In this document: piece by piece, positions 1 to 43,645 of the stretch | How the letters are laid out: each line of letters opens with the position of its first letter | How positions within the stretch are numbered: the first letter of the stretch is position 1 | Source of the DNA: Daphnia pulex | Lineage: Eukaryota > Arthropoda > Branchiopoda > Diplostraca > Daphniidae | Direction of reading: 5' to 3' | Length of the DNA stretch: 64,000 bases | Assembly: GCF_021134715.1 (NCBI RefSeq) | Contig: NC_060021.1 | Location: 62,001 to 126,000 of the forward strand | Made by a program: the position numbers and the translations under genes | Notes under the pieces: model-generated | What the model was told of the DNA's origin: nothing | Databases searched by the model: none | Seen by the model: the letters and a program-made list of their open reading frames with translations, nothing else

Positions 1-1335
1 GCCTTTGATGGCTCTTTCTCAACTTGTTCACTTTTCTCAGGTATAATTGTCTCTTCGGTGATTTTGAGTAGTTCAGTTTCACCCAGCACCTGCTGATCTT
101 CGTCGTTCGTCACATTTCCGGTGTCGTCAATGATCTCGGCCAAACTCTCGGTCAGACTCTTTGGCTGTTTCTCGTCCATTCCAAGTTGTGGGTTGGATGG
201 ACGTTTTTCTACCGGTTCCTGATTGTCGGCCGGCATTTCGTCGGGTAAACTCTCGGTGGCGTAAATAGCTTCCCGCGTTTGATCCTTGAGACTCTCCGGG
301 TTGTTTTGGAGCGTTTCAACTTGTTCTATCGTCGCCGGGATCTCATTGGGTTTTTCGACTCGAATGCCAACTTCCTCGCCATTCCTCAGGGTCAGACTAC
401 TCATTTGATCCAGTAGTTGCTCGATTGTGTCGGTCTGGTTGTTAAGGGATGCTCGTAGTTCTTCCACTTCCGCCTTACTGGATAGAAGAAGACGATCGGT
501 TTCTTCCATTTTTCGCCTCAATTGTGAATCATTTTCGGCCAAACGGAGATTTTTCGTTTCAAGTTCAGAAATGATTCTATTCTTTGACTCAAGCTCACGT
601 GTAGCCACGGCCAACTCGCGCGTGTCTAATTGTTGTTCGGCAAGGCAAACGCGAAGATTTTCCAATTCCGCCCGACTGGATGCGATCAGTCTATCCCTGT
701 CTTCAATTTTTCGTCTTAGACGGGAATCATCATTTGTCAAGTGAAGATTTTTCTCTGTCATGTCCGTAATAAGACTTTTCTTTTCTTCGAGTTTGCTTTT
801 GGTAGTTGCTGACTCGATGTGGAATTGTTGTAGTAACTTGGACTGGGAGTCTGTCAGTTGGGATTGAACTAGACTCAACTCATTCGCCAAACGTTGGTTT
901 TCTAATACTATCAGGTTGTTTAGTTGTATGGTTATGTTGTATGGTTACTATATGTCATATGGTTGTTCAAGTCTTCTCTGCGGGAAGCTACATAGATAGG
1001 TCTACGAAGGTTATGGTTCCAACGTCAACACTAACAAGCTGGTTAGTCCGGTTAGTCAATCCAATCCAATCAAACATCTTTCTCAACATTATTAGCGCAA
1101 ACATAAACATATATATATTTAGCGCTATATATATGAGCACCAAGAAGCAACAAAGTGCAGCCATAAGCGAAAGCAAAGCCAATATAGTGACTGCCATAAT
1201 GAAGATCATTTACACTGCTATTAGATGGTTTGTTTGCAATTGAAAACTGCGATGTTGACTATTGCCGTTGGGGTTGCCTTTATAAACTTGACAGGGGGAA
1301 TTCCGTTTAGCACTGTCCATTTCCACCGTTTTCAT
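1..1335 (-). pseudogene. Broken 5' part of a membrane-anchored coiled-coil family gene (runs off left edge)
   Basis: This is a paralogue of the genes at 10327-12690 and 18501-22913, cut by the left edge. From the minus strand it keeps the TATA block (TTTATA on plus at 1279-1284), a Met at 1209 and a hydrophobic anchor (MIFIMAVTILALLSLMAAL). The frame then stops at 988-990, and several more stops follow before the coiled coil resumes near 905 and stays open to base 1. That open part has the family phrases ELAVATRELESKN and NDSQLRRKMEETDRLLL, then the acidic linker with GETELLKITEETIIPE. Next to its intact paralogues, the stretch around 905-990 is frameshifted and replaced. A TAA sits directly before Met1209, which fits translation starting at that Met in the family. 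Most likely a pseudogene; an intron hidden around 905-990 is the alternative. Confidence 0.7.
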
Positions 1336-1724
1336 CAGATTTCTACTTACGTTTATGATTTTTAACTTTTTCAATTGATTTGTAATCTTAGTTTAAGATC
1401 TTACGCACATTGTTCAATGAGTTTGGAATTAATTGCAATTCATTAAAATATTTTAATTGCATTTTTGAAATGAAGGTTTTTGGAATTCTGGTTTGGATTC
1501 AAATGTTGCCGGTCTGGACATGTCTAGAAAACGACAGGGCGCCCATAGCGGGGAATCCACAAACTAAAGAAGTATTACGTAATAGTATTACAGAATTTTT
1601 AAATTCTTATCACTTTTGTATTTATTGCGTTCGGTTGTACCGTGTGTATTTTAATATATTTTGAAATACGTGGGAAGAATATGTTCGTTTTTTTAATGGT
1701 TAAAGTTTAGGTAAAAATTAAAGT
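1336..1724. other. Upstream flank shared with paralogues; no gene seen
   Basis: About 225 bp from 1336 are closely similar to 12691-12910 and 22914-23130. They include the shared stretch GTCTGGACATGTCT near 1512. This marks the duplicated upstream flank of the coiled-coil family. The remainder lies between this flank and the 3' end of the next gene. I see no coding potential in it. Confidence 0.6.
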
Positions 1725-3911
1725 TTATTTTGGAAGTGTTTTGGCTTTCTTCTTCAGCGCTTTGCCTTCTGCTTTGATGTTGTTTGCATGATCTTGCAAA
1801 ATTTTGGCCCTTTCTACCATTTGGAGCCCTGTCGTTTCCATCAAATTCGCGTATCCATCTTCATACTCTCGGGTCTTGCGCTTGGCAATCAGTTTTTTAA
1901 TCCAATTTCCCTTTTCCTTGTCTTCTCCTTTGGTTTTGGTCGTCCCAGAGTTCAACGATTCACGTTCGGTTTTCGTCGCTTTAGCTGCGTTTTGGGTTTG
2001 CTTAGTTGCTTCTTGCATAGCAGCCAGAGCTCCCGATAGCGCCTCCACTTGCTCTTTAGCCAATTTTGTCGATTTTTGCACGGAAAACAAAGTTTCCTCT
2101 TGAGTGTCCAAAAGTTTTTGATTCTCTTGTTTTAATCTCTCTAGTTCTTCTCGGCAATCTTCAGCCTCCTTCTTTAGGTTGTCATTATTCAACTCGAGTA
2201 AAGATTTATCGCTTTCCAGGTCCAAATTACGGGACGTTAATTCCTTATTTTCCCTCTCCTTTTCTGTGAGCGTAGCTTTGACAGATTCCAAGCTTATTTT
2301 TAGAAAACTGTCATCTTGTTTGATGCGCTCCAACTCCGACATCGTTGATGACAGGGTCTCATTCTGAGTTCCTATTGTAGATTTCAAATGGACGATTTCG
2401 TTTCTGAGAAGTTTTTCGGTGACATCCCACGTCGAGGCATTGCAGAGCAGAACGGATTTTTCTTTCTTGAGCTCGTCGATTTGAGACTCGAATGCAGTTA
2501 ACTCTGATTTTAGTTGAGTTATATTCGACTGAAGGAGATCGACTGCAACTTTTCGTTCGTCGGCTAATTGTGCCGATTCTTCTGCTAATTTGTTGACTTT
2601 TTCCACGAACACGAAAGCAGCGGCTTTTTCCTCTGAAATGCGTCGAAATTCCGCCTGTATCACTTCCGTTGTCCTTTTCGAACCTGTTAACTCATTTTCT
2701 AACTGATCATTTAGACTTGTCAAAACCAGATTTTTCTGATGGGATACTTTAAGTTCGAGCTGCCATTTGTGCATCTCCTCAACTTTCTCATCGGCAACCT
2801 TTTTGGCCTGCAGGGTAGACTCCAAAATTGCTTCTCTCTCCTCCAAGATTTTCTGCTTCCTGTTCAACTGATCCTTTAATTCGTTTATCTCCTTTTCCAA
2901 TTTCAATTCAGTCTCATGAAATGTATCTGTAATCGTCAGAGCCTTATCTCGTGAAGTAGCCAACTTCAAAATGAGCTCATCATTTTTCAAAGCTTTTCTC
3001 TGCAACTTGTTGTTCAGTTCGTTGGTTCTAGCCGTCAGGTTTTTAATTTCCTCCGATTGAAAACTCATCATACAAGCTGACGTCTCGAGATTAGTTTTCA
3101 GGTTGGAATTCTCTTCTACAAGTTGCTTAATAAGTTCATTGTTAACATCCGGTTTCTCTTCATCTTTTGGTTGATTTTTTTCGCTATCCACTTCGTCCTC
3201 AGCGACTTCCGAAGCCACGTATTTATCCATCAGCTCATCGTATTGCAATAATGTTTCCTTCAATTTATTGTTGAGGTCGTTTGTCGTATCCATCAGGTTC
3301 TGTATTTCGTCCGATTGGAAATTCACCGTACGATCTGACTGCTCGAGATTCGTTTTCAGTTTGGAATTTTCATCTCTGAGTTGCGTAAGTTCATCGGCAT
3401 CCAGTTTCTCTTGATTCCGGCTATCCGATTCGTATTTAGCCACAGTTTCCATTAGATATTTCACCTCGTCTTGGAGTCTCTCCTTCTCCTCTACAATCTC
3501 GTCAACACCGTGTAGCATGGCGCTGACATTGTGAAGCCTATTCTGACATACCCCAATTTCGTTTTTTAGATTCTGGTTGTCGTTTTCCAAGTTTTTCACA
3601 TACTCTTCGGTTATTCTCGTTGTTGTCGCCGGGAAATGATCAACCGGCGACTTTTCGGTATTTTTATCCATAGAATCAGTACTGTCAGGTAATACGGCAG
3701 AAGCTTGTTCCGGTTTCCACATAACAGGTTGGGGTGTTATGTGTGTCCGGCTGGTTGCCTCTTGCACTTTGGTTGTCGGAACTTGATTGTGACAAGATTC
3801 CGGATTAGGTTCTGGTCTGGTTTCAGTTGTGGTATCTGATTCAGAATTTTTGACCAGTAGAAACCAGACCCAAGCAAATATGGTTGCGCAAACGAATACT
3901 AAAAGAGCCAT
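1725..3911 (-). CDS. Signal-anchored long coiled-coil protein (728 aa)
   Basis: An uninterrupted frame of 728 codons. Residues 2-20 are a hydrophobic anchor (ALLVFVCATIFAWVWFLLV) followed by a lysine, so a type II/III membrane anchor or signal anchor is likely. Residues about 21-100 are a Thr/Pro/Glu-rich linker. From about 105 to 650 the protein is heptad-rich coiled coil, with related segments repeated (ENSKLKTNLEQS and ENSNLKTNLETS; SDEIQNLMDTTNDLNNKL and SEEIKNLTARTNELNNKL). The C-terminus is strongly basic (KGNWIKKLIAKRKTREYE and KALKKKAKTLPK). A TATATA box lies on plus at 4001-4006, about 90 bp upstream of the ATG. It shares anchor plus coiled coil with the neighbouring family but no obvious sequence identity. 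I do not recognise the family. Myosin-tail or golgin-like search hits would reflect composition only. Confidence 0.75.
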   Translation of the reverse strand: MALLVFVCATIFAWVWFLLVKNSESDTTTETRPEPNPESCHNQVPTTKVQEATSRTHITPQPVMWKPEQASAVLPDSTDSMDKNTEKSPVDHFPATTTRITEEYVKNLENDNQNLKNEIGVCQNRLHNVSAMLHGVDEIVEEKERLQDEVKYLMETVAKYESDSRNQEKLDADELTQLRDENSKLKTNLEQSDRTVNFQSDEIQNLMDTTNDLNNKLKETLLQYDELMDKYVASEVAEDEVDSEKNQPKDEEKPDVNNELIKQLVEENSNLKTNLETSACMMSFQSEEIKNLTARTNELNNKLQRKALKNDELILKLATSRDKALTITDTFHETELKLEKEINELKDQLNRKQKILEEREAILESTLQAKKVADEKVEEMHKWQLELKVSHQKNLVLTSLNDQLENELTGSKRTTEVIQAEFRRISEEKAAAFVFVEKVNKLAEESAQLADERKVAVDLLQSNITQLKSELTAFESQIDELKKEKSVLLCNASTWDVTEKLLRNEIVHLKSTIGTQNETLSSTMSELERIKQDDSFLKISLESVKATLTEKERENKELTSRNLDLESDKSLLELNNDNLKKEAEDCREELERLKQENQKLLDTQEETLFSVQKSTKLAKEQVEALSGALAAMQEATKQTQNAAKATKTERESLNSGTTKTKGEDKEKGNWIKKLIAKRKTREYEDGYANLMETTGLQMVERAKILQDHANNIKAEGKALKKKAKTLPK

Positions 3912-4006: not shown

Positions 4007-5271
4007 ACCTCCGACCGACAATGGAGAGTACGCACGAGAGGAACTTTCGTATTTTTGTTCAATATTTCAATTTTCTATGTAATTATTTCAAAATTTTTTA
4101 TCTGAATGTAATCAGCAGAATTTAACGAACAATGTTCAAAAGAAATTATTGCGTTAAAATTAATTTTGATTATTATCAATATTATCAATTATTTCAATAT
4201 ATCGCCGATATATTGATTGCCGAGTCGATTAAAGATTGCCGTCAATTATTTTGCGATTGATGTAGTTTTTTAGCGCCAGATGGCTACGATCAGGAATCGT
4301 GACTCGTGCTGTCTGCAGTCTGCTGCCTCGTGACTAAAAGTCTAAAACATTTTTCTGAAACTACTCGGGTGGGAAGTCTCGAGTTTGTTCCTCGTTTGGT
4401 TTTGTAAACGTTTTAAAATAATAAAATAAATTGAGAAAGATTAATATTTTCCTATTGACGTTCCATGGGCAATACAGACAGAAACAATTAGAGTGACAAA
4501 ACCGAATTGTTCTGGTGAATTCTGATTCATGTGGTCGTTTGACAAGGCAAAATCAATCATCATTCCGTAGCCGACTATTTTCTCGTTAAACAGGTAATAT
4601 TTTTTTTATTTTTATCGAATTCTCAACTGTTAAAAGATTGTTCACATAGTGAAATTCTGTAATGTCCTTTGTGAATTACGTTTTCAATTCCCACATCAAA
4701 CGTTGCTCGCTACCCAGTTATTAACACCTGTTCAACTTCCTTTGTATTGACAGTTCAGATGTGACTCTGATGCCTAGAACACGAGGAAACTAATTTTATG
4801 CCAAAGTTTGCAAGGTTTTTCTGTTTTGGTGTTCCCGTGTTAGGTATTCACATGACATAACTGACTGTCAAGTTAATTTCATTCCATTTTTCACTATTTA
4901 CCAAAGATGCCAACAGAATTCAGGTGATTCAGCCTTGATTTCAAGTTATCGGGATGGGTTTTTGGTGTTGAGTTAATCATTTTCCAGGTTCACAAGAACC
5001 AGGACAGTTTTGCGTAGGATATTTTGGTTTTTGTAATACTAGACCTAAACCAACGCTGTAGCTCAGTAGGGAAATGTTTTCTTTTTGTGCTGGTTAGCTA
5101 CCGACTGCATTCTCAATTTTTTCTCTCTACCTTTTCCCTTCTTGTTGTGGTAGGGGCTGAATAGTAGTTGAAAGATAGGGCATTCTTAGGTTGGAAATGA
5201 CGATTTGATACCATATGTATTAATATATATTTTTAAATCTACGGACAGACTGTTCATTTGGTGTAAAGGAA
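4007..5271. other. Divergent intergenic region and probable 5' UTR of importin alpha
   Basis: AT-rich DNA between a minus-strand gene and a plus-strand gene, so it should hold both promoters. The motif GCGCCAGATGGC occurs near 4274. Importin alphas normally start 15-25 residues further upstream than the ATG at 5272. The frame directly upstream of that ATG is open, so a 5' coding or UTR exon may lie in this stretch, but I could not identify it. Confidence 0.4.
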
Positions 5272-7120
5272 ATGGAGCGTACTGAGGTGAATGTAGAATT
5301 GAGGAAATCCCAGAAGGACGACGACCTGCTGCTGAATCGACACAACCTTGAAATCGATGACGAAACCCTTAGCCCTCTTGAAAAAACAAATCGTGTGGAT
5401 GCAGCCTACATGAGCATTGAGGACATGGTTAATGGTATGTTTGTGGCAGCTTTTGTTTTCTGTATATCCTATTTTCTCAGATTTTTCTTTTTATCACGTA
5501 GGTATCAATAGTGGTGATGAAAACATGGAAATTACTGCAACACACGCTGTACGTCAACTCCTCAGCAAGGAACCTAACATGGACTTAACGATCTTAATCG
5601 ACGATATTATTCCCAAGCTGGTAGAATTCCTAGGTCGTGTAAACAAGTATGTTGTGTCTTTATAACTTGGTTATTTCCAAACCTTTCATTATATGATGCT
5701 TTTCTGTTAGCCCTGATCTTCAGTTTGATTCTGGGTGGGTTCTCAGCAATATTGCGTTAGGCTCTGAGTGTGAGCAGACTGAAGGCTTCGTCGACAGTGC
5801 TGGGGCTGTTGCTGGACTCATTTCTTTGTTGGGTTCACCACATCCAGTTGTGGCCGAGCAAACTGTCTGTGCTCTCGGTAAAATCGCCGATTTCAGACCA
5901 GAGCTTCGAGATCACGTCATCGAGCTAGGCATCATTAAGCTTTTGGTCACCTTGATAAAACCCGATGCACCAGTAAGTTTATTTTAAAATTAAATACATG
6001 TGAACATTTAATAACTGATTTTCTTATTAGGATACATTATTGCGTAACGTCACTTGGACTTTGTCCAACTTGTGTCGCAACAAGATCCCTCCGCCCAGTG
6101 TCCCTTCCGTCCGACAACTTCTTCCCGTCTTGGCCCACCTGATCCACAGCAACGACAAAGAGATCCTAGCCGACGCTTGCTGGGCTCTGTCGTACCTCAC
6201 CGATGGCCCGAACGAACGGATTAAAGAAGTGGTTGACGCCGGAGTCGTCCCTCGTCTCGTCGCTTTGCTGGACCATAATGAATTGGCCGTCATCAACCCC
6301 ACTCTGATTGCTATCGTCAACATCGTTTCAGGAAGTGATTTTCAGACGGAATCCGTCTTGGATGCTGGTGCCTGCCCGTCGCTGGCCAAGTTGCTGGTTC
6401 ATTCGAAGATGAAGATCGTCAAGGAAGCTACCTTGGCCGTGTCCAACATTGCTGCCGGCAATACTATCCAGATTCAAGCTCTCATCAACAACAACGTTGT
6501 TCTTCCGTTGGTGGACGTACTGGGCAACGGCGATTTCGAATGCCAAAAAGAAGCAGCTTGGGCCATCACCAACATCACCTTGGGTTATACATTTCAGTCT
6601 AACTGGTGCTGATTGATATTTTTAAACTTTGTCTTTTTAATTTTAGGTGGTACTGTCGAGCAGATCGCTTTGTTGCGCCAGTTTGGTGTCATTCCTCCGC
6701 TGTGCGCTTTGTTAGAGGCTAAGGAAGATAGCAAGACTATCTTGGTCGTTTTGGAAGGCTTGGCTAATATTTTGGCCGTAGCCGAAATAATGGGTGAACT
6801 GGAGAATGTTTGCCTTCACGTCGAAGAGTGTGGAGGCCTGGATCGCATCGAAGATTTGCAGAGCCACGAAAAGAATAAGATTTCTTACAAGGCGCTGGCC
6901 ATTCTGGAGAAGTACTTCTCAAATGACGTAAGTGATTCTATTTTCTGGCTTTTTGAAAATATTATTTCGATGACTACCACAACTGTTTACATTCGGAGTG
7001 TTTTTGTTGACAACTTTACCATATTATTGAGATTTTTAAACATTATTTTTTTTTTTAAATCTCTTTCTTTATTTCGATTCATCGTTTTTTTTATTGTCTT
7101 TTTTTTTTCGACAGAGGTAG
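5272..7120 (+). CDS. Importin subunit alpha, KPNA2-like, short form
   Basis: Karyopherin alpha is the adaptor that binds classical nuclear localisation signals and importin beta. Exons by frame and GT/AG: 5272-5434, 5502-5646, 5711-5972, 6031-6583, 6647-6927 and 7115-7120 (469 aa). Residues 1-30 resemble the importin-beta-binding segment ([15 protein letters not shown]). ARM repeats follow with family signatures [47 protein letters not shown] and [10 protein letters not shown]. Two oddities: the basic KRRN cluster of the usual IBB reads LNRHN here, and the protein ends right after EKYFSND, without the usual acidic tail. An overlapping acceptor (exon 7117-7164) would give 483 aa and a different short tail. 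The usual N-terminal 15-25 residues are missing or lie in an unseen upstream exon. Gene identity is secure; the ends are less so. Confidence 0.88.
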
Positions 7121-10100
7121 GGAGATTCCTAGTTGGCGCAATCTACATCGCAGAGGGGCAATAGGGAATTCAACAACCAGCCAACTCAATGACCCCCCCC
7201 GAAGGAAGGTTTCTCATTTTAAATTTTGTCGTCTAAAATTCTTTTTTTCTGCCTTTACAATGGTAACTATGTTTTTCACTTCCTTCCACGCTATCCTAAC
7301 AAGTTTTGGCCTTTTTTTTGAAAGATTTAACGAAATTTTTAAACTGAAATTTGCCATTTGCTTTCGTTCCTGTTCATTCTTTCCTCTTTCTCTATGCGCG
7401 ATAGAAGTGCAATACAGAACAACTCGGATCAACTTTTCATTGGGTCGTTTGATGTTGTCGCAAGTTGATTTGTGTTTCAAGTTGATTTCCTAATTGCAGG
7501 TTGTCGGTCGCAGTCCTACTCAGGACTTTAATTTCCTTTCTGAAATTGACCAGAAAGTAGTTATCGATCCTTATTGCACTTCCTACCCCAATTCCTGTCA
7601 TATGGATTAACACTGCAGTTCTTCTGTTCACTCATTAACCAGGAAAAATGCAACAACTATCATCTTTCCAATGGGGACAGCTAGCTAACTGTTTGAACGC
7701 ACAAACTCCTTCTTTGTAGCAATGAAAAATCTTGACCGTTGGGAGTGAGACTTTTTCGACTGCATGTCACGACCTGTAGCCAAATGAAGGACAGTCTATT
7801 CACATTTGCCACCGTCGTTGATGTCAACTTCTTCGTTTTCTAGAATTAAGTCGAGAATCTCGAAATCCTTTTTTCGTGTCGTTGCTACTTGATAATGAAA
7901 CGAAGTAGTCCATTCTCGTCGCGCATGGTGGGATCGGTTCCTTTTTCCAGCAACCCCATCTAACCCCATTCACGTTGTTGGCGAGTATTGCAATGAAGTT
8001 TCCTCATTTTGATCGCAGTAATCGATATCGATTTCTCTCCTCAGGCGCTAAGTAGAGTTTGAATCAACTCTAACAGGTTGCGCAACTGGTGTTTCAGTTT
8101 TGTCAAAATATGGGATTTCGGGCAGATTTGTCCTGTTTTTTTCGCTTCGGTAATTTAAGTATTTATAATTCTAGTTTTATCAATTGATTTTGGAAATTGT
8201 TGGGTTGTTGCTGTTCCATAGACCAGGAGATGCTGAACTTGTTCGAGGTATCTTGTCATTATCTTTTATTTTTTTACTGCACTCTTAATTAGTCTTTTTA
8301 TCCAATTTCAGGTTCACCTTTCACCATTGTGCTAGGATTTTTTAAAGTTGTCCGGACGACGGATCGGGACTCTCTAGAGGCTGAGGTATTATTAGAGCTC
8401 TTTTCGTTGGTTTGCCGGCTATACTTTTTTTGTTGGTTGAATTCTATCCAGTTTAAATCAAGATGGAACTTTGTTTAACACGATTGCGTTTTATTTTTGA
8501 TAGGATATTGTGTTCAATACCCTAATATTAACAACGAAAATTCATTCCAGGAAATATTCATCCCGACCTCAACTTCTGATTCCACCCTTTGTTTTCTTCA
8601 ACTTGTTGTGTTCCCGCCTGGGCTCCTCGACCACGAAATCTGTGATTGATACACACCGCCACTATACCTTTGTTCAGGTGAAAACAGTTTATTTACTTCT
8701 GGTGCATGTTACTCCTAGTTGTTCGATGACACAGACACTATGACTTTGGTTTTGAAAAGCGAAAACAGGTCATCTATATTGTAACATTATTTAGTTAATT
8801 GCCCTGGAAATTCAAAGTTCAATGTTTGCATATAGACGTTGCCATGCCAAGAAAGGTGATGAATCCATTTTTGTTATAGCAATGCCGGGGTCGGTTCCCA
8901 GTTGAATTTGTTGACGAACGTTTATCGTAGGACGTTTATTGTAGACTCTCATTATTACCATCGCATTCGCCGGTTTGTTTTCTCTTTTTCCGTTGCGCTT
9001 TTCTCTTTCAACAAATTGGCAATGCTTTCGCCGTGGCCGTTCTGGTTGATCGTTGCGTAATATAGCGCCTTTTTGTGTTGACTTTAAAACTCAGGAAATC
9101 AGTCATTGATCAAAAGCAATAACGATTTGCCGTGACACGAGGATAATGTGTATAGCTTTTTCTCCATTTTGGTGGAAGGTTCCATCCCTATTCCCTATAT
9201 AATTGAATTGATTTTCTTGTCCACGTTCTTGAAAGGACTTATTTGCGTTCTGGTTGTCTTTCGTTCTTGGAAAAGGTTTGGCGCTGCTGGGGGGGAAAAA
9301 CTTTGCTCTTTAATTATCTTTTCTTCATTGTGTCACTTTATGGCACGAATAAACCTTGCCGATTTTCAAAAGAGGAATAATCGCCAATCAATTCCGTGTC
9401 GGGAATTTCGACGTTGCTCCCCAAGGTTTTCTGTTGATGGCGTTCCATCACAAATTGTAAATTGTTGACAGCTCAATATCGCCATTTTCATAACAGTTTT
9501 ATTGCCGAATTGCCCGAAACTAGCCTTCCACATTGTCGTGTAATAGCCGAACAGCACAAGACGAAGACCTTTTTTGTTCGTTCTCATTAATCAAAAGTAA
9601 ATCGTTTCATCTTTTCGTCAAGATCTTGTGACTCTGCTTCTTGACTTTTTTATTCCTCCTCAATATTCGCTTTGATGAAAAAAAAAAAGTCTAGACATTG
9701 CAAATACGACAACCTCTTGTTGACGTTTTCTCCTTTTTACCATTTTCGTTTAATATTCAACATAAAATCAGCTAGGAATCAGTTTTTTCTTTTTCCCCTT
9801 GGTCTAGTAAAATGAATGACACAACGAAACTAAAAGATTTGAAATTTAAAAATGAAATTTATTTGAATCGAAAAAGAGAGGGAAAAACAAAATCAAAGGG
9901 TAAACAAAAGAAACTACTGGACCAGCCCTACCATCGATAATAGTCGTCATCTTGCTCGGCTACCTCCACCCGCAACGCACGTTAGAAACTGATGGACTCG
10001 TTTGAGGGTACTGAAATCCCCCGTCAAGGTGTTAGTCAACTGTACACTGGCGTGCGAGTGAAGATGATCTAATTCCTTTCACCGTGTATAGAGAAGTCAT

Positions 10101-10326: not shown

Positions 10327-12564
10327 CTAGCGAGTTCCGTTTTGTAGAATTTCATAAACTCTTTTGCAATTGGCTAGCGTACCCCAGATGGTGACGTACT
10401 TATTTTCTCTACACGGACGATAAATCTGTACATTATGATTAAACGCTAATTCTCTCAACAAATAATCCTCGTAAAAAATGTTTCTTCTCAAATTGATTGT
10501 AGGACACTCGATGGTGACTGGCAGGTTGTCGATAACGTCGGAGCAAGCGGCCAGTCGGCTTTCAGCATCTCCGCCGGTGATGAAAAGATTCCCATTGATA
10601 AAGTAGACACTTACCCAATATTCATTTTCTAGCCTTTTTACATTTGTTCCATGGCGTCCAATAACTCGCCCGCAATCCTTATTCGCTATCCCAGTCACGA
10701 CAATTCGATCGACGTAGACTTCTTTTTCTATAGTGGTTGTGATGGAAAATTCGGGTAATGCATCCTGCGGTTGTTCAGTACACTGCTTGACGGCTTTCTT
10801 TTCATTAAAGGTGTTGGCCGGGGTATTCTCCATTGCGTCAGTTACTAGAGGCTGTGGTTCGGTCAGTGGTGGTTTAGCTTGAACTGCAGTGGAATTACAA
10901 GCTAAGAATGGCGTTAAGATTTCAGTAATTTCAGTGACTGGAGGGATGATGGGCTCTTCGATTTGGAGTTGGTTGAATACCTCCTCATCGGTGCTGCATC
11001 CAACGTCCACTGTCAACTTTGGTTTCATTTGTTTCTGATTATTTTCCATTTCTGCCAACTTCTGGAGGGCCTCGTCTTTTTCCTTTTCTAGACTTTTTAC
11101 TTGATCCAGTAGTTGCTCGATTGTGTCTGTCTGGTTGCTAAGGGATACTCGTACTTCTTCCACTTCCGCCTTACTGGATAAAAGAAGAAGATCGGTTTCT
11201 TCTATTTTTCGCCTCAGCTGTGAATCATTTTCGGATAAACGGAGATTTTTTGCTTCGAGTTCAGAAATGGTTTTATTCTTTGACTCCAGCTCACGTGTAG
11301 CCACGGTCAACTGCGAGGTGTCCAATTGTTGTTCACTTAGGCAAGTCCGCAGTTTCTCCAATTCTGCTCGACTTTCTTGATTTTGCTCTTGAAGTTTAAT
11401 TATGGCTCTGTTTTTGGATACCAGAGCACGTTGACTTGAAGCTAGCTCATTGTGCACCTTGTGCAATTTTTTTTCTTCATAACAATTATGTAGTTGCTCC
11501 AATTTCGTTCGTTTATATGCGATAAGTCGATCTCTGGCTTCAATTTTTCGCATTAGACCCGAATTCTCTTTTGTCAAATGGAAATTTTCCCCTGTAATGT
11601 CAGTAATTTCACGTTTCTTTTCTTCGAGTTCGTTTTTGGTAGTTGCCAACTCGTCTTGTACATTTTGGTACTGTTGCAGCTTTGATGAGGAGTCTGTCAA
11701 TTGTGATTGAAGCAGACTCAACTCATTCTCCAAACGTTCTTTATCCAAAACAAATAGATTATTCTCATTCGCTCGACTGGATGCTAAACATGCAGTTTCG
11801 ATTTCGGGGATTTCAATGACTGGAGTGCTGGGCTCTTCAATTCGCCTCAGTTGTGAATCGTTTTCGTCCAAGGTGACATTTTTCGCTTCGAGTTCAGAAA
11901 TGGTTCTATTCTTTGACTCAAGCTCACGTGTATTCACGGCCAACTCGCGCGTGTCTAATTGTTGTTCGGCAAGGCAAACGCGGAGATTTTCCAATTCCGC
12001 CCGACTGGATGCGATCAGTCTATCCCTGTCTTCAATTTTTCGTCTTAGACGCGAATCATAATTTGCCAAGCGAAGATTTTTCTCTGTCATGTCAGTCATT
12101 TCAATTTTTTTTTCTTCGAGTTCACTTTTGGTAGTTGCCAACTCGTCGTGTACGTTCTGAAACATTTGCAGCTTTGATGAGGAGTCTGTCAGTTGTGATT
12201 GAACTAGACTCAACTCATTCTCCAGGCGTTCATTTTCCAATACAATCAGGTTGTTTTCGTCCATCAAACGAAGAAAACTTTGGTTGTTCAAGTCTTCTCC
12301 GCTGGCAGTCGGAAATCCATCGTCAATTACAGGTCGGGGAAGTGCATGCTGGTTAGTGCATGCAAAGTCAGGTTCAATCATATTCAGGTTATCAGCCGAA
12401 TGCCGAGTTGGTGATTCGGTCTGTCGACTGATGATGAAGGCACACAGTGCATTGATGATTAAGGTATACAGTGCATTCACTGTCCATATGAGCTCCAAGA
12501 TGATATACAGTGCAGCCATAAGCGAAAGGAAAGCCAATATAGTGACTGCCAAAAGGATGATCAT
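10327..12564 (-). CDS. Membrane-anchored coiled-coil protein with C-terminal KH domain
   Basis: An uninterrupted frame. The open frame continues upstream to an ATG at 12690, but a TATA box (plus 12634-12639) lies inside that extension, so Met at 12564 is the better start (745 aa; 787 from the upstream ATG). Residue numbers here count from the 787-aa form. Met43 starts a hydrophobic anchor (MIILLAVTILAFLSLMAAL). A long coiled coil with internal repeats runs from about 135 to 560 (ELESKNRTISELEAKN twice; LLQSQLTDSSSKLQ). A Pro/Thr-rich linker follows. Residues 656-725 are a type-I KH domain with the GXXG loop GRHG at 678-681 (VIGRHGTNVKRLE). A second, degenerate KH-like half without GXXG fills the C-terminus. 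KH domains bind single-stranded RNA or DNA, so this would be an RNA-binding module tethered to a membrane. Its paralogue at 18501 has C2 domains instead. Confidence 0.8.
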   Translation of the reverse strand: MIILLAVTILAFLSLMAALYIILELIWTVNALYTLIINALCAFIISRQTESPTRHSADNLNMIEPDFACTNQHALPRPVIDDGFPTASGEDLNNQSFLRLMDENNLIVLENERLENELSLVQSQLTDSSSKLQMFQNVHDELATTKSELEEKKIEMTDMTEKNLRLANYDSRLRRKIEDRDRLIASSRAELENLRVCLAEQQLDTRELAVNTRELESKNRTISELEAKNVTLDENDSQLRRIEEPSTPVIEIPEIETACLASSRANENNLFVLDKERLENELSLLQSQLTDSSSKLQQYQNVQDELATTKNELEEKKREITDITGENFHLTKENSGLMRKIEARDRLIAYKRTKLEQLHNCYEEKKLHKVHNELASSQRALVSKNRAIIKLQEQNQESRAELEKLRTCLSEQQLDTSQLTVATRELESKNKTISELEAKNLRLSENDSQLRRKIEETDLLLLSSKAEVEEVRVSLSNQTDTIEQLLDQVKSLEKEKDEALQKLAEMENNQKQMKPKLTVDVGCSTDEEVFNQLQIEEPIIPPVTEITEILTPFLACNSTAVQAKPPLTEPQPLVTDAMENTPANTFNEKKAVKQCTEQPQDALPEFSITTTIEKEVYVDRIVVTGIANKDCGRVIGRHGTNVKRLENEYWVSVYFINGNLFITGGDAESRLAACSDVIDNLPVTIECPTINLRRNIFYEDYLLRELAFNHNVQIYRPCRENKYVTIWGTLANCKRVYEILQNGTR

Positions 12565-12690
12565 TTTCACTGCTGTTAGATGGTTTGTTTGCAATTGAAA
12601 ACTGCGATGTTGACTATTGCCGTTGGGGTTGCCTTTATAGACTTGCCAGGGGGAATTCCGTTTTGCACTGTCCATTTCCACCGTTTGCAT
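12565..12690 (-). promoter_or_regulatory. Core promoter and 5' UTR block of the KH gene (TATA at 12634-12639)
   Basis: TATAAA reads on the minus strand within the block AAGTCTATAAAGGCAACCCC, followed about 30 bp later by AGTCAACATCGCAGTT, a plausible initiator. The same block precedes the paralogues at 1209, 22787 and 42743. In the last of these it is clearly not coding, so the frame seen through it here is probably incidental. Confidence 0.65.
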
Positions 12691-13468
12691 CAGATTTCTA
12701 CTTATGTTTATACTATTTAACTTTTTGTATCAAATTGTAATCATACTTTAAGGTGTAACGAACATTGTTCAATTAGTTTAAAATTTATTGCAATTCATTT
12801 TAATCTTTTAATTTCATTTTGAAATGAAGTTTATTCGGAATTCCGGTTGGGATTCAAATGTTGCCGGTCTGGACATGTCTGGAAAACGACAGGGCGCCCG
12901 TAGCGGTAAGTCCACCAACTAAGAAGAATAAAAGTTAAAGGAATCATTTTTCATTGAATTGAGATTCTACACGGCAATTATTTTGTTTCTAGGTGGGTTT
13001 GCCCTAATAAACCGATAACGAAATTATAAATGACGTTACATGACCCCGTGAAGTCGTTAATTTAATCGTCTGCGTGTTGTCTAGCCTAATGTAAGTGTGT
13101 AACGAGGTAAGCCGTGTTAAGCTCGTTATGGCGTTAAGATCGTTTAGGTTATATTTTAAGTATTCAAATTTCAGTTACTCCATACTCCACTCGATGGGAG
13201 ACGACGTGAAACTTTTGATACCATATCTGACCAAATATTGTTTGACAACCGTTTTCCCGTAAACTAAAATCAGTAACAAAACTCGTTAACGTTTATCACT
13301 TTTTCTTTTAATTGGTTTATTTCGAAATCTTTTTGGTGTTTGTTTTATAATGGAAATAATTGGACATTATCATGAAAAAAGTACCTTCCGTATAATCAAT
13401 GAATATTGCAAAAGTTGCCGGGAATATGCGTGTTAGTTGTTTCTTTTTTCCCTTTATCGAATTCAAGT
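12691..13468. other. Duplicated upstream flank of the KH gene
   Basis: About 650 bp (12691-13340) align with 22914-23605 upstream of the 1470-codon paralogue, with small indels. The segmental duplication therefore included distal upstream DNA. No coding sequence was recognised. Confidence 0.6.
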
Positions 13469-14029
13469 TCAAGACGAATTCAAGATCTCCACCTCAAGAC
13501 AAGCTTTGCCCTCTGGATTGTAAGACTTGTCGTACAGTTTCAGTTTATAGACTTGATTTACTTCCAAGGCGGAGACGTAAAATACGACGGAGCCGACCGC
13601 GGACGTCTTCAAACCGAATTTCGATGACTTTTTCAGTTTAATTGTTATTAGGCACGCTTCCGGATTGAGAGTCTTGATGGGAAAGTATTTGTTCCATTCC
13701 GGCTGGCTGCTGCGGATCGTTTTGGTTTTGCTGACTTTCTTGTTGTTCTTGTCCTGTTCGCGAATCTTGCCGCCCCATTTCTGGACCCGCGTGGAAACCG
13801 AAAGGTAATATTTGTCAGAATCCTTTTCCTTGGCTTCCGGAAGGTATCCTCTCAGAACTCTGACATTGAAATGCTTTGGTGTCTGGTCTCCTTCCTCGCA
13901 TTCAGACTTTTCGGGATTTGGGGGCAATGAATGGGGATCTCCACGATTATCACGATATTGATCTTTTTGTAGAAGTGACCACGGATAGAGGAGTTCTTGT
14001 GGAATTTTCTCATCCGATAGATTTGCCAT
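13469..14029 (-). CDS. Small C2-like domain protein (186 aa)
   Basis: Single-exon frame of 186 codons. The N-terminus has no membrane segment and carries ELLYPWSLLQ, matching ILIYPWKELQ in the small paralogue at 42743. After an acidic stretch (DPHSLPPNPEKSE, also found in the giant paralogue) comes one C2-like beta-sandwich at residues about 52-183. Shared marks are VRVLRGYLPEAK, YYLSVSTRVQKW, SQPEWNKYF and IKLKKSSKFGLKTS. The loop that normally carries calcium-binding aspartates is poor in Asp, so calcium binding is doubtful. The Lys-rich strand could contact acidic lipid or protein. TATAAA on the minus strand (plus 14123-14128) is about 95 bp upstream of the ATG, inside a promoter module shared with the gene at 37626. 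The C2 assignment rests on pattern. Confidence 0.75.
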   Translation of the reverse strand: MANLSDEKIPQELLYPWSLLQKDQYRDNRGDPHSLPPNPEKSECEEGDQTPKHFNVRVLRGYLPEAKEKDSDKYYLSVSTRVQKWGGKIREQDKNNKKVSKTKTIRSSQPEWNKYFPIKTLNPEACLITIKLKKSSKFGLKTSAVGSVVFYVSALEVNQVYKLKLYDKSYNPEGKACLEVEILNSS

Positions 14030-14122
14030 GGCTACTTCTTCAGTTAATTTTATTCGTCAAGCCTTGAAAATGGAAATCACAGACTAAAAGACGATATAAC
14101 TGCAGACCAACTGTCAACCCCC

Positions 14123-14186
14123 TTTATACCTTTGGAACAGATTGTTGACGCGGCAGCTATTGGAAAGTCACTTTTTGTTAGGCATT
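14123..14186 (-). promoter_or_regulatory. Shared proximal promoter module with TATA box
   Basis: Read on minus: GCCTAACAAAAAGTGACTTT, then CCAATAGCTGCCGCGTCA, then GGTATAAAG. The same order and spacing occur at 37511-37574 upstream of the plus-strand gene at 37626. Weaker similarity continues distally to about 14330 (GTAGATGATGGGCCAAGAC). Confidence 0.7.
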
Positions 14187-22913: not shown

Positions 22914-23623
22914 CAGATTTCTACTTATGTTTATACTATTTAACTTTTTGTATTAAATTGTAATCATACTTTAAGGTGTAACGAACATTGTTCAATTAGT
23001 TTAAAATTTATTGCAATTCATTTTAATCATTTAATTTCATTTTGAAATGAAGTTTATTCGGAATTCCGGTTGGGATTCAAATTTTGCCGGTCTGGACATG
23101 TCTGGAAAACGACAGGGCGCCCGTAGCGGTAAGTTCATCAACTAATAAGAATAAAAGTTTAAGAATTACGTATCATTTTTCATTGAATTAAGAATTAAGA
23201 TTCTAAGGCAATCATTTCCGTGTTTTTCTGGAGCATTATTTTGGTTTTAGTTGGATTTTTAAAAAGGATGACGAGTTGCTGTTGCCCTAAAACTGATATT
23301 TACGAAATGATAAATTAGGTTACAGGGACCCGTCAATTCGTTAATTTTATCGTCTGCGTGTTGTTTAGCCCGTTTAGCCTAATGCAAGCGTGTAACGAGG
23401 TAAGCCGCGTAGCTGTTAAGGTCGTTAAGGTAAAATTTTAAGAATTTGAATTTCAGTTACTCCACACTCAACTCAGATGCCGTGAAACTTTGGATACCGT
23501 CTCACCAAATATTGTATGACGGACATTTTACCGTAAATTAAAATCAGAAACAAAACTCGTTAACGTTAATCTCTTTTTCTTTTAATTGGTTTATTTTGAG
23601 ATCTTTTTTAGAAATTTACTCAG
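22914..23623. other. Duplicated upstream flank; ends at the foldback element
   Basis: Aligns with 12691-13340. Similarity stops near 23605, essentially at the left end of the foldback element. No coding sequence. Confidence 0.6.
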
Positions 23624-36404: not shown

Positions 36405-37364
36405 TAAGAAAAAATACGCATTACCCAATGAACCTGCCGATATTGAAAATTATAAGCTGCCGTTATTGTGTGACAATTGAATAGCAGACGAGTCGCTGGT
36501 TAATCATTTTCAATATACTGTTTTTGTGTGCCATTGAACAACGAAGGAATTTAATTAAACTACATTTCATTTTGGGTCGTCATCAACGGCATCTGTGGGT
36601 AAGAATTTGAGCTCAAATTTGTTACTAAAAAAAGTTAATTGAAATGTCGTGTTATTCGTTTCGACTAATTCAGGTTATAGACTTTGAATGTTTTTAATAT
36701 AATAAAAAGTCCATTTCTTTAGCGGGCGGTGTGTGTGTGTTGTGTTGTTTTTTCGTATCGAGTTACCATCACGAGCAAAGTGCGTGCGGACGTGCAGCAG
36801 ACGGGCGAGTGGTACCACCGTAGAGAGAGGCTATCGAGACTTAGGACTTTGGAACTTTTATCGAGTTGGGGATATTTTTGAGGACAGTGGGAGAAACGAC
36901 CCACACACATCTCCGCCCGGCTATTTTTTCCCTGGGCCCATTGGGTGTTGTAATTTAGACTCTCGTACTACACTCACATCGAAAAAACCCAACCCCTGTA
37001 CTGCTGCTGCCCTATAGCACCGCCACATTTCACTGATAAAATGGAATCCAACGTGACACAAGGCACAAGGGCAAGTTGCACACAAAAAAATTGGACCACA
37101 ACTATAGATATCAATCAGACTATTACTTATTTTTTTACTTTATCGTAAAAAAGCTAGGAAGCGCTAGGAAGGATGTATGGTTGAGTAGTTTCCATCTATT
37201 ACACAGTCTCAGATCTTTAGTTCTGACTTCCACATTTCCACACATGAAATCACATCAATTTCTACTCAAATTTAAAGAATTGAATTTTATCGCCTGACCT
37301 AACCTAACCCACAGCCCACACTATTTCGCACCTTTGATTTCGCAACGTCTACAATCTAACCCGA
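36405..37364. other. Intergenic, GT-microsatellite and possible first exon
   Basis: A short (GT)n tract starts near 36728. The GC-richer stretch 36745-37020 resembles a 5' UTR or first exon in composition, but no protein family or splice partner was recognised. Confidence 0.3.
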
Positions 37365-37574
37365 GTCTTGGCCCATCATCTACATCCAAAACGACGAAAC
37401 AAAAATAAGATAATCGAATTCAACAAAATTTCTTTTTGAACATTTTTCGAAAAATACAAAAAAGTTGAAATTCAATAAAGATAACCACATTGGGCTTTTA
37501 TAAATGACGAAATGCCTAACAAAAAGTGACTTTCCAATAGCTGCCGCGTCACTTATTCGTTCCGAAGGTATAAA
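37365..37574 (+). promoter_or_regulatory. Shared upstream promoter region with TATA box (37569-37574)
   Basis: Contains TTGGCCCATCATCTACAT (37368), AAGATAATCGAATTC, TTTCTTTTTGAACATTTTTC, then AATGCCTAACAAAAAGTGAC, CCAATAGCTGCCGCGTCAC and GGTATAAAG. All occur in the same order upstream of the minus-strand gene ending at 14029. The TATA start is 57 bp before the ATG. Confidence 0.7.
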
Positions 37575-37625
37575 GAGGGAAGACTATCTGTTCGATATTA
37601 TTCTCTGATTCTTCAAGCCTAGCAA

Positions 37626-39332
37626 ATGATTACCCAAATGTTTTACATTGTTCTCGCGCTGCTCTTTGCGATTCATCATCTTGGCCTCCCAAAAATATTT
37701 GTTGTTATTGGCTGCCTGGGCTGGGGAGCATTTTTGATCGAGATGATGGCCAGTCATTTTCCCAAACGCCAACTGAAACCCGAATCGGAGTCTAAATCGT
37801 TTGATGGCGAGGAAGTCGGCATTAAAGTCAATAAACCCAATGAGATCCCGGCAGCGACAGAACAAGTTGAAACGATCCAAAATAACCCGGAGAGTCTCAA
37901 CTTTCAAACGGGGGAAGCTATTCTCGCCACCGAGAATTTTTCCGACGAAATTCCGGCCGACAATCAGGAACTGGATGAAACACCAGAAGAGCCAGTTTCT
38001 GAACCCAAATACATTCCGGTTGAAGTACGTCCATCCAACCAACAACTTGAAACGGACGAGAAAAAGCCGGAACTGGTGAGTTTGGCCGAAACCATTGTCG
38101 ACACCGAAAATGTGACTGTGACTAACAAAGATCAGCAGGTGCTGGGTGAAACTGAACTAACTGAAATCACCGAAGAGACGATTATACCTGAGGAAAAAAG
38201 TGAACAAGTTGAGGAACAGCCATCAAAGGATCAATCCAATAAGAGCACTGATAATCAATTACGTCATCAGCCTGACGATCCACAGGTACAGCCCCTTATT
38301 CCCGAAAAACCTGAACTTATAAATGATCAGACAATGGATCAGAAACCGGAAGAACCCAGCCCAGAGATCGTTTCTAAACCAAAGGACACGCCTGAAGCTG
38401 TAGAACCTGCGTCTAACGAACAATTCGAAACGGACGAGAAAAGACCGGAACCGAAGAGTCTGCCCAATAATTTGCAGAAGACGATTGACGACACCGGAAA
38501 TGTGAGTAACGAAGATCCGTTGGGTGAAACTGAACTACTTGAAATCGCCAAAGAAACAATTATACCTGAGGAAAGTGAGCAAGTTGAGGAACAGACATCG
38601 AAGGCTCAATCCAATAGGAGCACTGATAATCAATTCCGTCTTAAGCCTGAAGATCAACACGCATTGCCCCCAAAACCCCAAAAATCTCAACTTCAACAAA
38701 ATCGGGCAATGGATGAGAAACCGGAAGCAACAGAGCCGCTACCTGACTGCAAGGAAGAAAACCAGACGGCTCTAGAATCCAAAGAAACAGAACCAGCCGG
38801 GTCGAATAAAGAATATCCACCACCTGAAGCTGAGGAAGTCGACAAGGCCCCCCGACATGTCGAAATCATTTTTCGGAGACCAGTCAATTTTCCGGAAGCC
38901 GACAAGTTTTACATTTCTATGCGGGTCGAGGAATGGCGCAACGAAATCTGCAACAAGGTCAAGAAAGTCAAATCCAAAAAGTTCCTCGGCAGCGCTTTGG
39001 AAGTGAATCAAAACTTCATCATCGACACTCGTAATCCGGAAAAGTGTTTCCTGACCCTCAAAGTAAAAAAGACGTCGAAATTGGGTTTGGAAACGTCCAC
39101 GGTCGGCCAAATTAAAATGACCGTGTCTGATTTGATGGATATCATCAGTCGGAAGCACTCGCACCTCATTTGGTTGCCAGTGAACGACGAGTCTGGCAAT
39201 CCAGTGGGAGAAGCTTTGCTTGAAATGGACATCAAGATCGACGGTCTGCCGGACGACACTCCCAATCCGGCCGAGGTCAAAAGACAACGGAACATAAAGA
39301 AGGCGAAAAAAATCAATAGACGGAGAATCTGA
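37626..39332 (+). CDS. Membrane-anchored acidic-linker protein with one C2-like domain (568 aa)
   Basis: Single-exon frame. Residues 1-43 form one or two hydrophobic segments (MITQMFYIVLALLFAIHHLG, then IFVVIGCLGWGAFLIEMM). There is no long coiled coil. The linker (about 50-400) has the repeated acidic units seen in the giant gene: NKPNEIPAATEQVET, GETELTEITEETIIPEE, EQVEEQPSKDQSNKSTDNQ. A C2-like domain spans about 411-540 (FRRPVNFPEADKFYISMRVE, LKVKKTSKLGLETSTVG). The tail is strongly basic (KRQRNIKKAKKINRRRI). It seems to be the giant gene with the coiled coil removed and a different anchor. The basic tail could bind acidic membrane lipid or RNA (inference). The start is supported by the TATA box 57 bp upstream. 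Confidence 0.8.
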   Translation: MITQMFYIVLALLFAIHHLGLPKIFVVIGCLGWGAFLIEMMASHFPKRQLKPESESKSFDGEEVGIKVNKPNEIPAATEQVETIQNNPESLNFQTGEAILATENFSDEIPADNQELDETPEEPVSEPKYIPVEVRPSNQQLETDEKKPELVSLAETIVDTENVTVTNKDQQVLGETELTEITEETIIPEEKSEQVEEQPSKDQSNKSTDNQLRHQPDDPQVQPLIPEKPELINDQTMDQKPEEPSPEIVSKPKDTPEAVEPASNEQFETDEKRPEPKSLPNNLQKTIDDTGNVSNEDPLGETELLEIAKETIIPEESEQVEEQTSKAQSNRSTDNQFRLKPEDQHALPPKPQKSQLQQNRAMDEKPEATEPLPDCKEENQTALESKETEPAGSNKEYPPPEAEEVDKAPRHVEIIFRRPVNFPEADKFYISMRVEEWRNEICNKVKKVKSKKFLGSALEVNQNFIIDTRNPEKCFLTLKVKKTSKLGLETSTVGQIKMTVSDLMDIISRKHSHLIWLPVNDESGNPVGEALLEMDIKIDGLPDDTPNPAEVKRQRNIKKAKKINRRRI

Positions 39333-39737: not shown

Positions 39738-40066
39738 ATCTTGGCCCATCATCTACATTCAAATCGAATTAATAAAAATAAGATAATCGAATTCAATGAC
39801 ATTTCTTTTTGAACATTTTTCGATATATTCTTCAACCCTAGCAAATGATTACGCAAATGTTTTACATTGTTCTCGCGCTGCTCTTTGAGATTCATCACCT
39901 TGGCCTCCCAAAGATATTTGTTGTTATTGGCTGTCTGGGCTGGGGAGATGGATTCGAGAGGGATTGGGATTTTTGATCGAGATGATGGCCAGTCATTTTC
40001 CCAAACGCCAACTGAAACCCGAATCGGAGTCTAAATCGGTTGATGGCGAGGAAGTCGGCATTAAAG
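39738..40066 (+). pseudogene. Truncated, promoter-less duplicate of the 5' end of the 568-aa gene
   Basis: Repeats TTGGCCCATCATCTACAT, the distal upstream DNA and then the first about 65 codons, up to GAGGAAGTCGGCATTAAAGT, where similarity ends. Relative to the parent, about 165 bp including the TATA box and proximal module are deleted (junction near 39823). About 20 bp are inserted within the second hydrophobic segment, which breaks the frame. Confidence 0.85.
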
Positions 40067-40369
40067 TAGGATAGGAAATAGCTCCGTCAGCGGCATCGAC
40101 TCGAGCTAAAAGGACCAAGGAGACAGCCAACCCCATGAAGCAAACACATGGAGAGATTTGACTAGCGAATTCTTACTTCGTTGTTCTCTTAATTGTCAAA
40201 AGTGGAGCATCTTCCTAACTGAAGTCCACTATTTCTCTCTTAAATCTAACGAATTAAATCATCTAGTCTTGATGCTCTCGAAAGAATTAGACGCTCGTAA
40301 ATTCATCTCGACATGGTACAGCTCGTGGTGCGCAATACTAAATGTCTTTTGATTTGTGGTTTCTTACCT

Positions 40370-42511: not shown

Positions 42512-42646
42512 CACACCACGCTGAGGCAGCTCCCATCAGTCACGTGTTGGCGATGATTCTCGAAGGAGTTGCTAACGGTTTATTTTTATTTTTGGTGTGT
42601 TTGCCGTAAATAGACGAATGCAAATTGGTATTTCCCCTGGCAAGTC

Positions 42647-42652
42647 TATAAA
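42647..42652 (+). promoter_or_regulatory. TATA box in the family promoter block
   Basis: TATAAA inside CCCTGGCAAGTCTATAAAGG then CAACCCCAACGGCAG, the same block as before the KH and giant genes. Here 14 bp after the block are missing, and the first ATG of the gene is 91 bp downstream, so the block is untranslated. Confidence 0.65.
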
Positions 42653-42742
42653 GGCAACCCCAACGGCAGTTTTCGATCGCAAACACCCAATCTACCAGCA
42701 GAGAAACAAATCTTAAGACATTTTGGCAGCCCAGTCACTATA

Positions 42743-43645
42743 TTGAACAAAATGAAAATGATCGAACCTGAACTCCCGATTCCACCTGCTGATCTCCCGA
42801 TTCTAATTTATCCATGGAAAGAATTACAAGATATGTGGGCATCAAATTATGGGTCTGAAGAAAAACCTGATTTGGCGGTAGTCGCTAACCAATTCCGTCA
42901 TCAGCCTGGGGACCTGCAACAGGTACTGCCCCATTTTCACGAAAATTTTGATTTCATCAACAAGAATGACAATCAGCCCAAGAATGACAGTCATACACCA
43001 AAAGACCCACATCCACTCCATCCAAATCCCGAAGAATCTGATTGCGAGGATGCAGAAATCGATAAGCCTAAGCAAATCAAAATCAAAATCAGAGTTTTGA
43101 GAGGAGAAAACCTACCGGAAACAAAGGACAAGTACTACGTTTACATTCGGGGCGAAGAATGGCACGACAGAATCTGCGTTCAGTCGAAGAAAATAATAAC
43201 GAAACCCATCCGCGGCAGCCATCCGATGTGGATAGAAAACTTTACCATCGAAACTCGAAACCCGGAAAGGTGGATGTTGACAATTAAACTGAAAAAGTCG
43301 TCAGCATTGGATTCGAATACGTCCATCACGGTCGGCTCCGGCGTAATTGACGTGTCCAACTTGTTGGCATATCAAGTCAATAGAGTGAAACTGTATGACA
43401 ACAAATACTATCCAGTGGGAAAACGTTGTGTTGATTTGGAAATAAGGATCGAGTATCCGCTGCAAGAAGTCTTTCCACGGCCAAAGAAAATTTTTGAAAC
43501 CAAGGGCACTCCGGCTGAATTACCTCCGTCTGGCGAACATGAGCAAGAAAAGGATGAGAAAAAGCCTAAACCGAAGAGCCCCAGATCCCAAGCCCCAAAC
43601 CAGACGCTCCTCGACAATCTAGACGTGATCCTGAGCTCGTTCTGA
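42743..43645 (+). CDS. Small C2-like domain protein (300 aa), anchor lost
   Basis: Single-exon frame starting MNKMKMIEPELPIPP; Met4 or Met6 are also possible. There is no membrane segment. ILIYPWKELQDMW near residue 20 matches the small paralogue at 13469. One C2-like domain spans about 112-240 (IRVLRGENLPETKDKYYVYI, SHPMWIENFTIET, IKLKKSSALDSNTSITVGSG). A Lys/Pro-rich tail follows, with the end motif LLDNLDVILSSF echoing LSDILDTMDSWF of the giant protein. The 5' UTR contains GCAGCCCAGTCACTATATTG, clearly derived from the anchor-coding segment of the paralogues (ATGGCAGTCACTATATTGGC). This gene therefore descends from an anchored form whose anchor now lies untranslated. Confidence 0.8.
   Translation: MNKMKMIEPELPIPPADLPILIYPWKELQDMWASNYGSEEKPDLAVVANQFRHQPGDLQQVLPHFHENFDFINKNDNQPKNDSHTPKDPHPLHPNPEESDCEDAEIDKPKQIKIKIRVLRGENLPETKDKYYVYIRGEEWHDRICVQSKKIITKPIRGSHPMWIENFTIETRNPERWMLTIKLKKSSALDSNTSITVGSGVIDVSNLLAYQVNRVKLYDNKYYPVGKRCVDLEIRIEYPLQEVFPRPKKIFETKGTPAELPPSGEHEQEKDEKKPKPKSPRSQAPNQTLLDNLDVILSSF

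Follow-up and report, generated by a model that had tools for sequence, protein, structure and literature searches.

Several described systems carry parts like those considered here: AKAP1 and TDRKH/Papi are anchored KH proteins, the extended synaptotagmins and MCTP proteins are laid out as anchored C2 tethers, FUBP/KSRP, IGF2BP and PCBP are soluble multi-KH proteins, and full-length metazoan eIF4G carries C-terminal MA3 and W2 domains. The stretch of Daphnia pulex DNA analysed in this work (64,000 bases, positions 62001-126000 of contig C5; hereafter the window) contains members of a large, real, composite gene family in which the components are known and the combination is unmatched in the literature searched. 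A sequence-only reading of the same DNA had proposed a family of membrane anchors, coiled coils and KH or C2 ends, and had known no named family with this layout; likewise, no publication naming the family or the combination was found in the open-licence literature searched. The loci named in that reading exist as open frames or, at the left edge, as a broken copy (open reading frame list and searches), and the shared phrases that it quoted are present in the translations. The present analysis adds to it an upstream element, relatives that carry an eIF4G core, and the phospholipase C (PLC) type of the C2 domain.

Module exchange within the window

The family members of the window, and the segments in which their similarity changes partner, are as follows.

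10327-12687, minus strand: gene for a protein of 786 residues with transmembrane segment (TM), coiled coil and KH domain, in a single uninterrupted frame (open reading frame, KH_1 Pfam match, hydropathy, heptad scan)
About 12466-12588, about 11023-12285 and 10330-10800, minus strand: TM, coiled coil and KH module of the 10327 gene
18501-22910, minus strand: gene for a protein of 1469 residues with TM, coiled coil, acidic linker, C2, linker and C2, in a single uninterrupted frame
19701-20096 and 18900-19295, minus strand: the two C2 domains of the 18501 gene (Pfam C2, E 8.6e-14, two stretches)
37626-39332, plus strand: gene with a second anchor type, acidic linker, C2 (38832-39233) and basic tail
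13469-14029, minus strand: C2-only gene, 186 residues, no predicted membrane segment (open reading frame; Pfam C2, E 1.2e-5)
42614-43645, plus strand: C2 gene (the 42743 gene) with a remnant anchor-1 leader and without a membrane segment; C2 at 43064-43444
About 1-1332, minus strand: broken copy of anchor, coiled coil and linker, with a stop inside the anchor and a frame change
20193-21094, minus strand: linker block beginning at the swap point behind the coiled coil; 85.7% identical to 37804-38687 of the 37626 gene
37325-37579, plus strand: region upstream of the 37626 gene; shares 85% identity with 14118-14369, upstream of the C2-only gene 13469

When the window is blasted against itself, long shared blocks appear (82% over 1527 bp, 84% over 1023 bp and 86% over 914 bp), a degree of sharing far above chance. 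The suggestion that the same parts recur in different combinations is thereby confirmed, and the exchange of modules among the window genes is genuine and visible at the DNA level. The upstream DNA, the leader and the membrane segment of the KH gene recur in the two-C2 gene (11887-13334 versus 22130-23608, 82%), as does the coiled coil (11090-12081 versus 21106-22127, 84%); at about 21.1 kb the two-C2 gene departs from the KH-gene similarity and goes on as the acidic linker, and the junction of coiled coil and linker is also covered by the broken left-edge copy. Retro-duplication of whole genes was considered and rejected for the anchor-1 genes, because about 600 bp of upstream DNA is copied with them.

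With a hydropathy threshold of 1.6 for a TM, a hydrophobic N-terminal segment is predicted in the 10327 gene (2.78) and in the 18501 and 37626 genes, as well as in the neighbouring coiled-coil gene at 1725-3911, and none is predicted in the C2 genes 13469 and 42743. The description of the family as membrane tethers remains an interpretation of hydropathy. The 13469 and 42743 genes had both been described as C2 only; neither has a predicted membrane segment, but the 42743 gene retains a remnant of the anchor-1 leader (42608-42745, 72% identical to 12677-12535). A TATA-like box was read by eye at about 14123-14128, upstream of the 13469 gene.

The exchanged ends stand behind a common upstream element, a 39-bp core found at three places in the window.

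12861-12899, minus strand: core upstream of the KH gene (exact match)
23084-23122, minus strand: core upstream of the two-C2 gene (exact match)
1506-1544, minus strand: core upstream of the broken copy (one mismatch)

This core, which precedes both KH genes and C2 genes, shows 98.3% pairwise identity in eight copies, as against 75% in the upstream and 85.5% in the downstream flanks. Allowing three mismatches or fewer, it occurs at 17 sites in the genome (reversed control 0), all of which fall within copies of a longer upstream region; at 14 of them, an anchor-1 protein match lies no more than about 250 bases away. Some copies of the longer region exceed the three-mismatch limit, and conservation of the core is therefore not universal. 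As a separate observation, the core at 12861-12899 contains AGACATGTCC, which we take to fit the p53-family half-site RRRCWWGYYY, adjoining a palindrome, GGGCGCCC.

The KH and C2 modules and their genomic relatives

Searches across 13 contigs (133,188,837 bases) indicate that "at least six loci", although all are present, was a large understatement. The KH module gives 50 matches (from 54 candidates), the C2 module 38 (from 40 scored candidates) and anchor 1 a further 21 (from 30 candidates), with 35 of the KH and 30 of the C2 matches lying inside uninterrupted frames of at least 300 codons. These counts are lower bounds and refer to matches rather than genes, some genes containing several C2 matches and some places yielding two KH matches. 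The genes are presumably single-exon, and the copies are arranged in tandem and inverted blocks, as with three 1644-codon copies on C5 at intervals of about 11.1 kb. The KH genes that were read fall into five layouts: TM, coiled coil and KH, as in the window; a short version of the same (L066, L067, L072, L074); coiled coil and KH without a TM (contigs C10 and C12); a charged N-terminus followed by coiled coil and KH (L073); and coiled coil, MIF4G and KH.

The KH_1 domain lies above the Pfam cut-off in the window gene (E 3e-6, 27.3 bits versus 21.5) and in all ten KH-bearing relatives scanned, and the GxxG loop is kept in each of 22 aligned copies. The best solved-structure matches in a PDB sequence search are far-upstream-element-binding protein 2, IGF2BP3 and Nova-1. 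In a tree of 25 rows, seven window-type sequences, six MIF4G-KH sequences and one truncated row group together with support 99/99, which makes the MIF4G-KH proteins the apparent closest relatives of the window KH genes within that tree (alignment and tree draw on 22 and 25 of the 50 matches, leaving out the near-identical L055 and L062-L064, those with stops or short frames, L041, L052, L059 and L068, and unfetched matches). The last 65 residues of the module are also conserved. They look KH-like by eye; a second KH domain was nevertheless rejected as a claim, since the profile comparison scores 11.5 where 40 shuffles reach a maximum of 14.9 and the best PDB match has E 0.31. Prediction of the structures of the C-terminal ends, a check proposed by the sequence-only reading, gave an eight-stranded model for C2 (predicted local distance difference test, pLDDT, 78.5; predicted template modelling score 0.72), but the single-sequence model of these 65 residues was poor (pLDDT 44).

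A further junction is seen at L041 (contig C2, 11655716-11657694), where the coiled-coil gene of 1725-3911 is present in a copy that continues into a KH-module copy with stops, linking that gene's own family with the KH family.

In the MIF4G-KH relatives, the MIF4G part matches Pfam with E 6.3e-41 and eIF4G1 (PDB 8huj) with E 2.3e-63. In a genome search with MIF4G, seven copies of the family are each hit as a single piece (one contains a stop), whereas the cognate eIF4G on contig C4 gives four separate hits; read by eye, the YDRNFLL stretch and the MIF4G stretches of the latter occupy different frames and are separated by stops. In all four full MIF4G-KH copies read (of six), an eIF4E-binding motif of the YxxxxL-hydrophobic type, YDRAFLM, stands 85-90 residues before the start of MIF4G. 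The spacing of Y, L and M in this motif is that of Y808, L813 and M814 of Aplysia eIF4G, which were mutated there as key positions of the eIF4E-binding domain (PMC3760813). It follows from the one-piece MIF4G of the family, the split parent on C4 and the YDRAFLM motif that the eIF4G core was joined to this family as a copy free of introns. RNA-mediated capture is argued for the eIF4G core only, because its parent is split; for the PLC-type C2 it is possible. No Pfam match to MA3 or W2 was found in L051 (E<=1) or in L050 and L053 (E<=0.01), and KH is the last module of the frame. A second eIF4G-like locus was observed at C4:5535255-5535953, where a one-piece MIF4G match (38% identical) lies in a 347-codon frame with one stop.

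Constraint was estimated as the ratio of nonsynonymous to synonymous substitution (dN/dS) by a Nei-Gojobori type count over pooled, non-independent pairs of chosen copies (five of six MIF4G-KH, four and three TM-coiled coil-KH, four anchor-2 C2, five of seven C2-only and five cytosolic copies), with one run also masking poorly aligned columns, which lowers dN. The MIF4G (0.17) and KH (0.20) domains of five pooled copies of the MIF4G-KH branch are under clear purifying selection, the last 65 residues giving 0.26 and the linker 0.59.

The C2 domain exceeds the Pfam cut-off in two of the four window C2 genes, including the 13469 gene (25.9 bits versus 22), and falls slightly below it in the 42743 gene (20.5 bits versus 22). 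The 37626 gene has no Pfam match at E<=1, its C2 being identified by comparison within the family: it aligns with the C2 of the 13469 gene (E 6.4e-16), as does the C2 of the 42743 gene (E 3.9e-21). Nearly all fold matches listed for the C2 model are C2 domains, with PLC C2 domains at the top, tied with others within 1 Z. By sequence, the closest domain is the C2 of a PLC on contig C9 (probability 98.3, E 2e-14), which is also the sole non-family match in the genome search with the C2 module. This gene (C9:7531302-7532921, L071) encodes the X, Y and C2 domains of a phosphatidylinositol-specific PLC (PI-PLC) in one uninterrupted frame; it reads SMDDN where PLC-gamma1 has SIEDH, presumably a catalytic stretch. 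The family C2 is accordingly PLC-type and lacks the loop acids. In the one loop compared, at positions that we assume to be calcium ligands, PLC-gamma1 reads YEEDMFSDQN, the C9 PLC KKSMYFGMIN and the family KKSSKLGLKTS, with K88, K90 and K91 invariant and the acidic calcium-loop residues absent. Three further C2 proteins on contig C10 (16109547-16112912, 16125475-16127283 and 16129243-16131033) have an anchor resembling that of the 37626 gene, two of them with a similar GWRKxK-type tail and the third with a different end.

One anchor-2 and C2 protein (C7:6466707-6469364; L032:160-2817) continues after its C2 into two terminal retropepsin-like stretches with DSG and DTG motifs. By eye, no reverse-transcriptase frame is evident in the roughly 580 bases that follow, and retropepsin relatives occur elsewhere in the genome (23 matches from 36 candidates); the label of retrotransposon was for these reasons not adopted for the family. 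The retropepsin pair has a 68% relative at C4:8216555-8217325, inside a 410-codon frame. A viral or mobile origin was likewise set aside, since none of the 171 and 24 pattern matches from two scans of viral contigs was confirmed as a relative.

Proposed function and competing explanations

The explanation that we favour, at slightly short of an even chance for the whole of it, is that recombination at the DNA level joins a fixed front end (promoter core, short leader, membrane segment and coiled coil) to exchangeable C-terminal modules, with a KH branch that controls translation at a membrane and a C2 branch that acts as a bridge. The front end would set a coiled-coil rod on the membrane. The C-terminal module of the KH branch would bind RNA through its intact GxxG loop; since an intron-free eIF4G core is present in its nearest relatives, this branch would most likely keep chosen mRNAs on the membrane or in a coiled-coil assembly and tune their cap-dependent translation. 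In the MIF4G-KH relatives the eIF4G core would recruit eIF4E and eIF4A to the held RNA, and the KH proteins that have no such core, the window gene among them, may sequester, store or localise mRNA. In the C2 branch, the PLC-type C2 takes the place of KH and, lacking the loop acids, would most likely bind an acidic membrane or lipid, or a protein, without calcium, so forming a bridge from anchor to membrane.

A more specific proposal, which we advance tentatively and regard as somewhat doubtful, is that the MIF4G-KH proteins are membrane-associated mini-eIF4Gs, in which a captured, intron-free eIF4E-binding motif and MIF4G, together with coiled coil and KH, serve as mRNA-selective scaffolds for cap-dependent initiation; the window family would then be their anchored sisters without the initiation core, with KH exchangeable for a PLC-type C2 under one promoter core. 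If this is true, gene-specific translation scaffolds arose in one animal lineage when the eIF4G core was copied into a KH family, and behind one promoter and anchor the RNA-binding end has been replaced by lipid-binding ones. The loci would then form a natural, still readable series of domain exchanges and offer a testable link of mRNA-binding specificity, membrane and cap-dependent initiation.

Several observations weigh against these proposals. The case for a membrane location is weakest in the MIF4G branch, where the best N-terminal hydrophobic segment of the proteins read (four of six) reaches 1.17-1.37, below the threshold; the cytosolic coiled coil-KH members have no predicted anchor, and in a near-twin of the window KH gene at 386 kb on C5 most of the anchor lies in a separate short frame. 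The window KH gene has itself no eIF4G core in Pfam searches, and the profile of the family C2 matches no solved structure in the PDB at E<=0.01 (best single-sequence E 0.2). Constraint is also uneven: KH gives a dN/dS of 0.89 in the C3/C8 set, where there is little divergence, the cytosolic set gives 0.53 for KH and 0.92 for the N part, and the C2 branch is weakly constrained, with 0.59-0.69 and, for one C2-only pair, 1.4. In addition, several copies are broken, including those at 1-1332 of the window and at C2:11657074.

One rival explanation is that the family is shaped by conflict, its KH and mini-eIF4G proteins acting as restriction factors or as decoys that capture the RNA of viruses or transposons together with the translation machinery and that diversify by duplication and module exchange. 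The large copy number, the tandem, inverted and broken copies, and the moderately raised dN/dS in the linkers (0.45-0.59) and in the cytosolic N part are consistent with such a role, but the purifying selection on MIF4G and KH of the mini-eIF4G branch is not, and we consider it unlikely. A germline RNA-granule family is rather improbable: here the proteins, like AKAP1 or TDRKH/Papi, would be anchored at the outer mitochondrial membrane or the endoplasmic reticulum and keep mRNAs or precursors of piRNAs in place in oocytes or the testis, in keeping with the N-terminal anchor and KH and with the germline roles known for duplicated translation factors in insects; however, the window KH gene has no Tudor domain next to its KH at E<=1 in Pfam, and the C2 and tandem-retropepsin variants do not fit. 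Equally hard to credit is a mostly decaying or neutral amplification, in which a few mini-eIF4G and KH genes function and the C2 branch and many coiled-coil copies drift. The dN/dS of the C2 branch and the broken copies favour it, but C2 frames of 1483 codons (one) and 1644 codons (three) remain open, and the upstream core is far better conserved than its flanks. That these are divergent members of one known conserved family is highly improbable, for although TM with coiled coil, with KH or with C2 occurs in such proteins as the extended synaptotagmins, kinectin/RRBP1 and AKAP1, no SMP, Tudor or other defining domain was found at E<=1, the swap points reveal composites, and PDB searches match KH domains for the KH module and nothing for the C2 profile at E<=0.01.

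Neighbouring features and relation to known systems

Beyond the loci of the sequence-only reading, the neighbourhood includes an anchored coiled-coil gene and a second anchor fragment, and other genes and repeats lie in the same window.

1725-3911, minus strand: gene for a protein of 728 residues with TM, long coiled coil and basic tail; its own multicopy family (34 matches from 56 candidates in the genome search)
39827-40067, plus strand: second anchor-2 fragment, 88% identical to 37608-37828
5271-7164, plus strand: Armadillo-repeat gene, which we take to be importin-alpha-like, among the family members; domain confirmed for 6031-6609
47565-54322, minus strand: phosphatidylinositol 4-kinase type gene, G+C 0.55-0.59, above the remainder of the window; PI3_PI4_kinase and PIK domains at 47565-49081, the part covered by the domain test, its other frames reaching 54322
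57486-58221, minus strand: direct repeat with two frames (125 and 128 codons) of near-identical translation, offset by about 358 bases

Compared with known systems, the family shares with AKAP1 and TDRKH/Papi an N-terminal membrane segment and KH, and differs from them in the long coiled coil between the two, in its many copies and in having no Tudor domain at E<=1. KH_1 with GxxG is common to the family and to FUBP/KSRP, IGF2BP and PCBP, which are among the best solved matches, but the family has one supported KH and a conserved 65-residue end. Its C2 members resemble the extended synaptotagmins and MCTP in their N-terminal membrane segment and C-terminal C2 domains; in contrast, no SMP domain was found at E<=1 (Pfam) in the window C2 genes or in the C10 and C7 relatives scanned, the loop acids are absent, and coiled coil and acidic linker stand instead. 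The C2 of PI-PLC is the nearest sequence relative and heads the fold list, yet the family proteins scanned have no X or Y catalytic domain and carry the C2, in one to several copies, behind an anchor and a linker. Finally, the proteins closest to the window KH module have the eIF4E-binding motif and MIF4G in the order of eIF4G, but their MIF4G is intron-free and in one frame, preceded by a coiled coil and followed by KH rather than by a Pfam match to MA3 or W2, and the window gene is without the eIF4G core.
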